A stretch of 64,000 nt of DNA, taken from assembly GCA_913020155.1 (NCBI GenBank), contig CAJWBA010000002.1, forward strand, positions 1-64,000. The letters are read 5' to 3'. The position numbers were made by a program, and so were the translations under genes. The notes beneath the pieces were generated by a model that was not told where the DNA came from, made no database searches, and saw only the letters and a program-made list of their open reading frames with translations. This DNA is from an uncultured Flavobacteriales bacterium. GTDB taxonomy: Bacteria; Bacteroidota; Bacteroidia; Flavobacteriales; Flavobacteriaceae. Shown one piece after another: positions 13,818 to 17,585 of this stretch (the first letter of the stretch is position 1; every line of letters starts with the position of its first letter).

Positions 13818-14525
13818 TTATTCGACTTCCTCTTTTATAGAAGCAAGATAATTTCCAAACTCAACCCCATAGGTTGAGTTTTTTACATTTTCAGACATCT
13901 TGTTGTAAAGATCATCTAAGAATTTTTTGTTGGCATCATTAACCTCAAAGAGACCAATGTATGCTGCAATTTCTTTGTCAGCGTTATTATTAGCATAATT
14001 CAATGCATACAGATAACGACGACGCAAGAGACTCCTAGAAGCTTTAGTAAGTTTTTGTTCTCTCTCTTGGGCAGTTAGTCCGTCATCTTTTATGAAGTCT
14101 TTGATGAGATCAAGATTCTGTTCATTAAACTTTCTCAGAACAGATTGGTATTCTTCATACAATACTTGATTTTCAGAGCCACTAATTTGAGCACTACTTT
14201 CAAAAGTTTTTAAAAGTGAATTGATTGTAATTTCACCTTTTTCAGCAAAAAATAAAATGCGGTCGTTCAGAGTATCTCCATCCTCTTTTGCTAAATATAA
14301 ATAATAAATTTCAGGGGATTCGATATCAGCCTGTAATTTGAAATCACTGTTTTTTTCGACTGTGAAAGAATCAATATTTATGATTGTACTGTCTTCCAAT
14401 TTTTGAAGGTAAAGGGTGCCTTTTCTTAAGCCATCGATTTTGCCCATTACTTGCATGGTTTTATTTGGGGGTGAACCACATGAAATCAAAAGGCTTAGGA
14501 CTAAATTAGTATAAAAAAATCTCAT
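13818..14525 (-). CDS. DUF4369 lipoprotein
   Basis: A 235-aa exported protein with a lipoprotein signal peptide: hydrophobic stretch and lipobox L-I-S-C with C16 as the lipidated residue. The following region (about 22-120) resembles DUF4369, a beta-rich domain found at the N-terminus of Bacteroidota TlpA/AhpC-type thiol oxidoreductases (MGKIDGLRKGTLYLQKL, then DSTIINIDSFTV). No thioredoxin domain or CxxC follows, so it is a stand-alone form. The C-terminal half is helical and charged. It is 11 bp downstream of the DUF5916 gene on the same strand and may be co-transcribed. Role unknown. Confidence 0.8.
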   Translation of the reverse strand: MRFFYTNLVLSLLISCGSPPNKTMQVMGKIDGLRKGTLYLQKLEDSTIINIDSFTVEKNSDFKLQADIESPEIYYLYLAKEDGDTLNDRILFFAEKGEITINSLLKTFESSAQISGSENQVLYEEYQSVLRKFNEQNLDLIKDFIKDDGLTAQEREQKLTKASRSLLRRRYLYALNYANNNADKEIAAYIGLFEVNDANKKFLDDLYNKMSENVKNSTYGVEFGNYLASIKEEVE

Positions 14526-14536
14526 AAAATATATTG

Positions 14537-16738
14537 TTATTTATTGAACCAGTAGGTTAACTTAAATGTTAAACTTCTGACCTTAGGTGCAAAAGTATCA
14601 GTTACAAAGTAATTATCATTGTAAACAAGATAAAAATCTGATAAGGGACTAAATCTCCACTGCAATCTCGAATTAATCCCAAAAATATCAGATTGTGAAC
14701 TGAATTGAAAAAAAGTCCCCCAAAAAACCTTTTTACTGAAGGTAATATCAACTTTAGGACCGATGAGAATAAGATTTACAGAGGGGAAGGGATCGGGAAG
14801 TTTTATTTGATCGTAATTCAAACGCATACTCGCTGTTAAATAAGGTTGCACACGGTAGTTCATTTGAGAAGACAAAGAAAACTTTGTTCCGTTGAAAAAA
14901 TTTCCATAGGAGCTTTTTAGGTTGTAATTAAAAATATTACTCCTGTCCGATTGAAATGAGAATTCAATATCTTCGTAATCATACCCTGTTCCTGCTTGCA
15001 AGGAAACATTAGAGTCACTTCGTGTAGGGTCAAAATCATTAATCAAATAAGTGTAACGACTGCTGTAGCGGAATTCTAACTTAGCCTGATTTAAGAATGA
15101 AAACTCAAGACTAGACCATAATCCACGATCGGTAGTGAGGTAATCGTCTTTTGGAAGACCTACATAATAGAAAGTTTGAGATAAATTTATGGATCTCAAT
15201 ATTTTCGACTTTAGCCAGATGCGGTAGGTGTATCGAAAGTAATTTTTTAAAATACCAGTTCTTCTTATGAACCCTAAATCCGACTGATAATTTTTCCCGA
15301 TTCGAGTTCCTCCATAAGAAATTGAATGAACTTTTGCGTTGTAATTAAAGCGAATTCCAGAGGCATATGCTTCTTGTTTTTGAGCTGGACTGAACGAATT
15401 GTGAAAGAAAGTTCTCCCAGTCCAACGATTGCTTTTTGAAGCCAAGTTAAAGTCCAACCCCAAAACACGATTAAATTCATCTTGGGAATGATCAAATTCA
15501 GGATTACCGACAGTTTGGCGGTTCACAAAAATAAAACTCAAATTGGATCGATCTAAAACTTGTTGTTGTAGCGTAAAAACAGTGTTGTTGTTTGCAGCAA
15601 TTTGATTTGAGGGATCTTGATCCGTTTGCATATTTAGAAAACCCAAGCGTAGATTATTGTTAATTTTTCCACTCAACCTCACACCGGCAATAATTTTATT
15701 TTCAAAAGTAGTACCTGTAGTATCCTTTGCTACTCCAATTCTTCTTGAGAAAAAGGGTTGTGCCTCCCGTTGATCTCCAAAATTAACAAACAAGTCACTA
15801 TTCTGAATAAAAAACTGACGCTTTTCAGGTAAAGTAACTTCAAATCGAGATAAGTTAATTATTTGATCGTCAACCTCAACTTGAGAAAAATCTGGATTAA
15901 ATGTCAAATCCAAATTCATACCACTTCCAATAGAAATTTTAGCATCACCTCCATAATTGAAAATGTTTGTTTGTTGATCTGCATCGAAATCTTTTTGAAC
16001 TGCTCCACCAACATAAGGAATAAGAGCAATCAATTTTTTTGATTTTTTCAGGGGCTTTTCAAAATTAAGTACACCCATGTAAGCTAAGCCCGCAATGGTT
16101 TGATTTTGAGGAACATTAGCCCATGTTGACCACTGTCTGGTATGCGTATCGTGACGATAAATATTAACTCTCCACTGTGTGGCGCCTTCTGGATATTGTA
16201 TGGACTTCAAAGGGATTTTAATTTCAGAAACTGTAAATCCATTTTGTTGACTGGGTTTGGTTTCCCATTTAACATCCCAACTTTTATTGTAGTCCTTTTC
16301 GTAATTATTTCCTCCATTTGAAATCAGAGACTCTCTTTTAACACCAAATGGATTGGTACCAAACATAAATCCGTTGGCCCCATCCATAAAAGTATCTAAA
16401 ATCAGGGTTATGTTATCGTTTCCAGCACCAGAGTAATCTCTTCTTAAGGAAGGAATAATGTATTCTGAAGCCTCCGTATAAGAGGTAACAAGAACATACA
16501 AATTTTCATCATCAACTAAGAATTTTGCAGTTGTTGGCTGGTCTGCTTTAAGGCTATCGGTGGGAAACCACTGCCAAAACCCAGAAATCTGGTCTGCGTT
16601 TTCCCATGACTCCTCATTTCCATAGCCATCAATTTCAATGGTTTCACCCGTATGGTTTACAAAGGCATTTCTAACTTCTTGGGCAATAGAAATAGAATTA
16701 AAAACAATCAGAAAATATAGAGTAATAAGACTTTTAAT
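14537..16738 (-). CDS. DUF5916 outer-membrane protein with CBM9-like N-terminus, apparent ATT start
   Basis: The 733-aa reading frame encodes a signal peptide (IKSLITLYFLIVFNSISIAQ), an N-terminal CBM9-like domain (about residues 25-220; GETIEIDGYGNEESWENA, then IPLKSIQYP with WRVNIYRHD) and a C-terminal DUF5916 region predicted to be a beta-barrel, ending in aromatic YWFNK. No ATG, GTG or TTG is in frame between an upstream stop (16766-16768) and codon 80. The codon at the expected start of the signal peptide is ATT (16738-16736). Either ATT is used, the start was lost by mutation, or there is a sequence error. Starting at 16501 would remove the signal peptide and part of the CBM9 domain. 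Ligand unknown. Confidence 0.75.
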   Translation of the reverse strand: MKSLITLYFLIVFNSISIAQEVRNAFVNHTGETIEIDGYGNEESWENADQISGFWQWFPTDSLKADQPTTAKFLVDDENLYVLVTSYTEASEYIIPSLRRDYSGAGNDNITLILDTFMDGANGFMFGTNPFGVKRESLISNGGNNYEKDYNKSWDVKWETKPSQQNGFTVSEIKIPLKSIQYPEGATQWRVNIYRHDTHTRQWSTWANVPQNQTIAGLAYMGVLNFEKPLKKSKKLIALIPYVGGAVQKDFDADQQTNIFNYGGDAKISIGSGMNLDLTFNPDFSQVEVDDQIINLSRFEVTLPEKRQFFIQNSDLFVNFGDQREAQPFFSRRIGVAKDTTGTTFENKIIAGVRLSGKINNNLRLGFLNMQTDQDPSNQIAANNNTVFTLQQQVLDRSNLSFIFVNRQTVGNPEFDHSQDEFNRVLGLDFNLASKSNRWTGRTFFHNSFSPAQKQEAYASGIRFNYNAKVHSISYGGTRIGKNYQSDLGFIRRTGILKNYFRYTYRIWLKSKILRSINLSQTFYYVGLPKDDYLTTDRGLWSSLEFSFLNQAKLEFRYSSRYTYLINDFDPTRSDSNVSLQAGTGYDYEDIEFSFQSDRSNIFNYNLKSSYGNFFNGTKFSLSSQMNYRVQPYLTASMRLNYDQIKLPDPFPSVNLILIGPKVDITFSKKVFWGTFFQFSSQSDIFGINSRLQWRFSPLSDFYLVYNDNYFVTDTFAPKVRSLTFKLTYWFNK

Positions 16739-16938
16739 GGCAGTAGGTTTAAGAAGTGAATTTTGTTATCCTTTTTACATAATACGTTAAGACTTAAGAA
16801 TTGGTCTATGGTTTAATTCAATAGATGTAAAACAACATTTTTTGTCTTATTAATCTCCAAAACTAATTATAAATTGTCTTCTAATGTTTATTTTTTGTCC
16901 AAACTATATTTTATAAATTATGAAAAAAATATTTTATT

Positions 16939-17574
16939 TCAGCGGTTATTATTATTGTTTGTGGAAACGATAACGGTCCGGAAAGTCAAATTGATTCGTG
17001 GTCCTATTTGCTTTTGAGTTTTTGCAATTTGATGCTTCCAGTGGTGTTGCATTTCACCTCCCATGATTAACAAACTTCCATGAGAAAGTTTAATTTTATA
17101 TCTTTCTGTTTTGATTTTTTTGTGCCTAAGATGAAAAAATCTTTCAGCACCCAAACTAACAGAAGCAATGATGGGATTACTTCCCAATTCCCTTTCATCG
17201 TCTGAATGCCAACTATTACTGTCTTTTCCATCCCTGTATTTATTTAATAAAACACTTGTAAATTCATGTTGCCCTACAGTCTTTATTTTAGAAAGAATAT
17301 GCACTAATATGGGCGACATTGGTTCGGGATTCATTGTGATTCCCGAATAGCCGTAGGGGATATTATTGATGCTGTGAAGAGAAGTTAATCGAGGTTGGGG
17401 ATACGTCTTACCAAAAACAGTAATGGGGTCTTGCCTCCAAGGAATTTCGGTATCCAAAGTTATGTAAAGGAGATCTGCCTCTTCTTTTGACCAAAAATTC
17501 TCAAAATAATGCAGTTCAGCATTGGGAAGTTTTGGTTTCCAAACCGGAATATTATCTGAGAAGAGTTCTTGCAT
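16939..17574 (-). CDS. AlkB-like 2OG-Fe(II) dioxygenase
   Basis: A 211-aa member of the AlkB family, which removes alkyl groups from nucleic-acid bases using iron and 2-oxoglutarate. Iron ligands are visible in SWHSDDE (His and Asp) and in the distal HHWKHQI; the RINLTFR motif near the end supplies the arginines that bind 2-oxoglutarate and hold the active site. The substrate-side motif PRLTSLHS also fits. The start is placed at the ATG at 17574 (MQELFSDNIP) rather than a TTG two codons upstream, which overlaps a promoter box. The tail is asparagine-rich, encoded by an AAT repeat. Confidence 0.9.
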   Translation of the reverse strand: MQELFSDNIPVWKPKLPNAELHYFENFWSKEEADLLYITLDTEIPWRQDPITVFGKTYPQPRLTSLHSINNIPYGYSGITMNPEPMSPILVHILSKIKTVGQHEFTSVLLNKYRDGKDSNSWHSDDERELGSNPIIASVSLGAERFFHLRHKKIKTERYKIKLSHGSLLIMGGEMQHHWKHQIAKTQKQIGPRINLTFRTVIVSTNNNNNR

Positions 17575-17577
17575 ATC

Positions 17578-17585
17578 CAAAAATA
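17578..17585 (-). promoter_or_regulatory. -7 promoter box of the alkB-like gene
   Basis: Minus-strand TATTTTTG is a perfect TAnnTTTG box ending only 3 nt before the ATG at 17574, so the transcript is probably leaderless or nearly so. A TTG lies upstream, but at 26 nt it is too far for a normal -33 element. Confidence 0.45.

Follow-up and report, generated by a model that had tools for sequence, protein, structure and literature searches.

We found that a gene for a predicted outer-membrane DUF5916 protein in an uncultured Flavobacteriales bacterium most probably begins at an ATT codon, and comparison of orthologous sequences indicates that this weak start codon is an inherited feature of the genus. 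The gene lies in the window, by which we mean the whole stretch of 64,000 nucleotides analysed (contig CAJWBA010000002.1, assembly GCA_913020155.1). In our main reading, to which we assign a probability of roughly 0.75, translation starts at the ATT and the weak start is under selection, so that it would throttle translation of a gene that lacks a Shine-Dalgarno (SD) sequence. The gene and its surroundings are laid out as follows:

16766-16768, minus strand: in-frame stop TAA, with nine codons between it and the ATT
16736-16738, minus strand: ATT, where the DUF5916 gene is inferred to begin, from the start-column comparison of 17 genus orthologues
16499-16501, minus strand: TTG, the first canonical start-type codon, which is codon 80 counted from the ATT and lies 88 codons after the stop
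14537-16738, minus strand: DUF5916 coding sequence of 733 codons plus stop, with signal peptide, CBM9-like domain and predicted outer-membrane beta-barrel
13818-14525, minus strand: downstream DUF4369 gene, starting 11 nt after the DUF5916 stop
16939-17580, minus strand: upstream gene for an AlkB-like 2OG-Fe(II) oxygenase, a neighbour in the orthologous loci as well

The minus-strand frame 14537-16765 is open for 742 codons in the window sequence, and ATG, GTG and TTG are all absent in frame from the stop at 16766-16768 to codon 80. The preliminary description had claimed just this, and its coordinates proved exact. It had offered three interpretations, of which the rare ATT start is supported by the data below, whereas a silencing point mutation and a sequencing error are refuted. 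With the ATT taken as codon 1, the signal peptide reads (M)KSLITLYFLIVFNSISIAQ; a start at the TTG of codon 80 would remove it and truncate the CBM9-like domain. Within 150 nt upstream of the ATT, the window also lacks any canonical codon from which one of the other two frames runs across it.

All 19 genomes of the genus that were searched contain a DUF5916 match, and 17 of them, including the window genome (G000), yielded countable orthologues. Left out of the count were G008, whose match is no more than a distant relative at 30% identity, and G005, whose frame is disrupted; the G005 orthologue (L019), a pseudogene or an assembly error, carries a TTG three codons before the ATT. Orthology is supported by the same two neighbour genes, since the DUF4369 gene lies downstream in 17/17 loci and the AlkB-like gene upstream in 17/17 (complete, or truncated where the fetched locus ends). 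With the n-region of the signal peptide as the anchor of the alignment, the start column held ATT in nine orthologues (G000, G003, G018, G012, G006, G013, G010, G016 and G011), ATC in two (G017 and G015), ATA in one (G007) and TTG in five (G009, G001, G002, G004 and G014); ATG was found in none of the 17. A non-canonical start, AUU, AUC or AUA (hereafter AUH), is thus conserved across species in 12/17, with TTG in the remaining five. The preliminary description, which had supposed that homologues would have ATG here and had proposed a comparison with close relatives, was mistaken in its supposition: the same-genus relatives keep a weak codon throughout and show ATT, ATC, ATA or TTG instead.

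The stretch before codon 80 is under selection at the protein level. Among six pairs of four species, dN/dS of codons 2-79 is 0.12-0.27, and that of the signal peptide alone is 0.20-0.48, a weaker constraint that is still below 1. These codons evolve as coding sequence, and therefore the missing start codon is not due to chance. Over 117 kb aligned with G003 (70 kb also with G018), the DUF5916 gene is the sole gene with at least 12 coding codons before the first canonical codon, as judged by reading the flagged list by eye; the remaining long entries of that list resemble antisense shadows of genes.

A private point mutation of ATG to ATT that silenced export would require only a single base change, but the start column reads ATT, ATC, ATA or TTG in 17/17 and codons 2-79 are under purifying selection, so that we regard this reading as very improbable. 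A sequencing or assembly error at 16736-16738 might be suspected in a fragmented assembly (1.70 Mb, 80% complete, 45 contigs), yet ATT stands at the same place in the assemblies of eight other species, including those of G018 (2 contigs) and G016 (4 contigs), and its likelihood is close to nil; because the genus shares the start column, both a private mutation and an error are ruled out. It is also highly improbable that only a cytoplasmic short form is made from the TTG at codon 80. This is the first canonical codon of the frame, and it is present in G000 and G003, but it is missing in G018 and G012, codons 2-79 are conserved, and the product would be a barrel protein deprived of its signal peptide, which would not reach the outer membrane, and of part of its CBM9-like fold; the downstream start was accordingly set aside. 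Translation could alternatively start upstream, either out of frame and then by programmed frameshifting, or at a different codon, near-cognate or, in certain species, canonical. An in-frame ATG does occur 21 codons above the ATT in the sister species G003 (L003), where the signal peptide would then be preceded by 21 extra residues, and in G017 two in-frame TTG codons lie 40 and 54 codons above the ATC; judging from their sequences, another start is possible in these two. Between the upstream stop and the AUH codon, the other 10 of the 12 AUH species have no in-frame canonical codon, the ATG of G003 is out of the gene's frame in G000, G018 and G012, with intervening stops, and in-frame stops lie 4-9 codons before the AUH codon in G000, G006, G010, G011, G015 and G016. 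Poly-A runs precede the codon in G011, G015 and G017, and out-of-frame TTG or GTG codons are found within 80 nt upstream in six of the eight AUH species outside the window clade (G000, G003, G018 and G012) and in none of the other two; they sit at differing places among the six species. Against entry by frameshifting, which was set aside for the window clade, stands the result that in 4/4 members of that clade neither of the other two frames has, within 150 nt upstream, a canonical codon leading across the ATT, and an upstream near-cognate codon common to the AUH species was not found. GCC or GCT directly precedes the AUH codon in 10/12 AUH species and, ATT, ATC and ATA being synonymous Ile codons, this is compatible with an internal Ala-Ile. 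A start is favoured over an internal Ile because TTG in five species of the genus, and TTG, GTG or ATG in outgroups, head the signal peptide at this place. Altogether we consider an upstream start improbable.

The remaining reading, that the ATT is the start but that any weak start is tolerated and drifts neutrally, with no throttling or regulatory role, concerns the wider family. A family search covered 199 genomes, 156 of which gave a DUF5916 match. Start states were read by eye, because automatic assignment was unreliable (among 107 DUF5916 loci, 43 were not assignable and several were clear errors). In the best 28 loci outside the genus, one per genome, the start was ATG in 12, TTG in 12 and GTG in three, and one locus, L036 of genome G083 from another genus, had no canonical codon, the candidate being ATC or ATT. 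In a tree from which the first 44 residues of the 742-codon frame had been excluded, L036 clusters with those eight AUH species of the genus that are more distant. The column varies across the family as drift would predict, with 11 changes among seven states (seven changes when only ATG, TTG/GTG and AUH are distinguished), but the states are clustered on the tree: the shuffled mean is 24.5 changes, and 0/200 shuffles were as low as 11. Moreover, ATG never appears in the genus (0/17 loci), even though one base change would turn ATT into it. Neutral drift therefore appears unlikely to us, though it deserves to be taken seriously. A point against the selected weak start, which we prefer, is that such a start is not required everywhere, because 12/28 family orthologues have ATG. 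For comparison, genes of at least 120 codons in G018 (n=746) comprise 588 with ATG, 73 with TTG and 27 with GTG, counts that come from an assignment rule preferring ATG, and 58/746 have no canonical codon near the scored start.

Two sequence features around the start were considered in addition:

16709-16768, minus strand: initiation region from -30 to +30, without an SD-like 4-mer and with a predicted fold of 0.0 kcal/mol
16858-16865, minus strand: TAGTTTTG, a match to TAnnTTTG, 119 nt before the ATT

None of the 17 orthologues has an SD-like 4-mer (GGAG, AGGA, GAGG or GGGG) at -20 to -4. The predicted fold of 0.0 kcal/mol for the initiation region of the window is shared by few genes, only 3% of the 588 ATG genes of G018 being equally open, and by predicted initiation-region structure nine of the 12 AUH species rank within the most open quarter; G006 (-5.6) and G007 (-4.8) fold more strongly than the median gene (-3.9). 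A triplet RYY shared before the AUH codon of infC, DUF5916 and AAA_28 was considered as a motif and dropped, because RYY is common before ATG starts (97/588 in G018, and GYY in 20/588) and because G015 and MnmC2 depart from the pattern. The motif TAnnTTTG, which we take to be the Bacteroidota -7 promoter box, occurs exactly once within 200 nt upstream in 14/17 orthologues; its background in 920 kb of G018 is 0.78 per kb on one strand and 0.75 on the other, or about 0.16 per 200 nt by chance. Its distance to the start is 118-119 nt in the window clade, 19-46 nt in eight other species, 13 nt in G011 and 11 nt in G015, and in the latter two there is therefore little room for a leader.

Three segments of the protein were delineated:

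16682-16738, minus strand: signal peptide, about codons 1-19 (model helix 2-17; cleavage site judged by eye)
16052-16681, minus strand: CBM9-like domain, residues 20-229 (structural matches with Z 19.0-20.0)
14540-16045, minus strand: predicted outer-membrane beta-barrel, residues 232-733 (model strands and structural match)

The DUF5916 and outer-membrane assignments made earlier are upheld by the profile, the model and the structural matches. The protein passes the PF19313 (DUF5916) profile with E 1.4e-26 and 93.9 bits, against a Pfam cut-off of 22.6, and its structure model has a pLDDT of 83.3; Q20 is invariant in 17 sequences. The CBM9-like assignment stands by fold and fails by sequence: residues 20-229 match 4jpq, 1i82, 7nwn and 7nwo at Z 19.0-20.0 (175-197 residues, rmsd 2.5-2.9), whereas the CBM9_1 (PF06452) profile scores 20.1 bits, below the Pfam cut-off of 23.4. 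The assignment is thus a whole-domain structural match of the model at the level of the fold, and sugar binding is at most putative. Structurally the barrel comes closest to 6r2q chain B, from the Mtr complex (Z 16.4, rmsd 4.1, 384 residues), and siderophore receptors, ushers and LptD match it at Z 13-16; because barrels resemble one another, these matches do not point to a function. Searches found no sequence relative of the protein in the PDB, no NCBIfam family for it and no publication naming DUF5916.

The same cells seem, from their sequences, to use AUH starts in other genes. The infC gene, encoding IF3, was found in 19/19 genomes of the genus and starts with ATA in 20/20 genus loci, all of which open with ATA-GC(A/T)-AT(A/T) and lack any canonical codon ahead of the conserved IN motif. 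In the wider family, 59 genomes have infC; 30 loci were fetched and 29 were readable, with ATA in 29/29, so that across the Flavobacteriaceae loci L159-L208 (the copy of the window genome being L175) ATA was found in 49/49 readable of 50 fetched. The infC ATA is mostly preceded by GCC, GTC or ACC, with a stop one codon further up in 9/29 of the family loci read. Of 814 ORFs in 920 kb of G018, a coding-score census flagged 32, among them both positive controls. Most other flags resemble fragments, a prfB-like frameshift (G018:C1:969791-970837, presumably prfB itself after its usual programmed frameshift) or noise, and two proved to be further conserved AUH-start genes, for an AAA_28 P-loop protein and an MnmC2-like methyltransferase, with starts again read by eye. 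The AAA_28 gene (L249-L267; G018:C1:1157041-1157595) has ATC in 14 of 19 genus genomes, TTG in four and ATG in one; outside the genus, TTG was seen in 23/28 family loci. The MnmC2-like gene (L268-L284; G018:C1:1234520-1235206) is represented by 17 loci from 16/19 genus genomes, and the 16 loci holding the 5' end, one per genome, have ATT or ATC in seven and ATG in nine; five of the seven ATT/ATC loci contain an in-frame ATG some 16 codons later. The G003 copy of this gene has an internal TAG. A possible further gene, with ATC directly after a stop, lies at G016:C1:843235-843969. Because the census missed infC in a G074 sample (1/287 flagged), and DUF5916 and AAA_28 in a G016 sample (9/339 flagged), it is insensitive, and it supports neither a rate nor a comparison between genera. 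Gene finders commonly allow only ATG, GTG and TTG; therefore such genes would be shortened in databases, and their signal peptides lost.

If the ATT is the start, the initiator tRNA would read AUU with a third-position mismatch, as at the AUU or AUA start of infC. Bacteroidota ribosomes are reported to sequester the anti-SD (PMC9976891), and because these ribosomes do not select starts by SD pairing, the start site is probably found through the unstructured mRNA around it. Selection would keep the start weak, as suggested by a column that alternates among AUU, AUC, AUA and UUG in the genus and is never AUG. The likely effect would be a constant brake on the synthesis of a large outer-membrane barrel protein, and this brake might be stronger when IF3 is abundant; both the low output and the sensitivity to IF3 are presumed from the kind of codon. 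A regulatory role of the ATT start is plausible, and the gene may be under the control of IF3. A wider proposal, that in these SD-blind marine flavobacteria infC, the DUF5916 barrel gene, AAA_28 and MnmC2 form an AUH-start regulon set by the level of IF3, is in our estimate rather unlikely. If it were true, translation of the four genes would rise together as IF3 falls, and envelope and tRNA modification would be linked to translation capacity.

In AUU, AUC and AUA the third base does not match the initiator anticodon, and a few genes with such starts are known in other bacteria. Binns and Masters reportedly found in 2002 that E. coli pcnB is held low by its AUU start. The DUF5916 gene resembles pcnB in having AUU, but it encodes an unrelated protein in another phylum and lacks an SD. 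IF3 is reported to discriminate against AUU at the start of infC, the gene that encodes it (PMC9410913). With infC, which starts with AUU or AUA in E. coli and S. aureus and with ATA in the genomes studied here, the DUF5916 gene shares a third-position-mismatch start; the difference is that its product is an outer-membrane barrel protein, and therefore any control by IF3 would act in trans and not as autoregulation. Further parallels are the S. aureus genes cvfC1 (AUU), ccpN and citZ (both AUA). According to the report on them, AUU and AUA starts give about 10% of AUG output in poor medium, and ccpN reaches up to 30% in rich medium; the report describes the non-canonical starts of cvfC1 and ccpN as conserved and predicts that initiation at infC, cvfC1 and ccpN is guided by an extended SD (PMC13009471). 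The DUF5916 start shares with these genes the AUH codon, which lowers output there, and differs from the subtype with an extended SD, an SD-like 4-mer being present in 0/17 orthologues. Few AUH starts are known, and those of S. aureus are predicted to depend on SD pairing. With several conserved AUH starts in SD-blind bacteria one can ask how the ribosome finds a mismatched start, and the same gene set allows one to ask whether IF3 tunes several genes. A search of the open-licence literature found no publication on AUH starts in Bacteroidota. Conserved AUH starts as such are already known, and the DUF5916 start is a new member among them; it differs from the others, as read from the aligned loci, in having no SD guidance and in encoding a surface protein.
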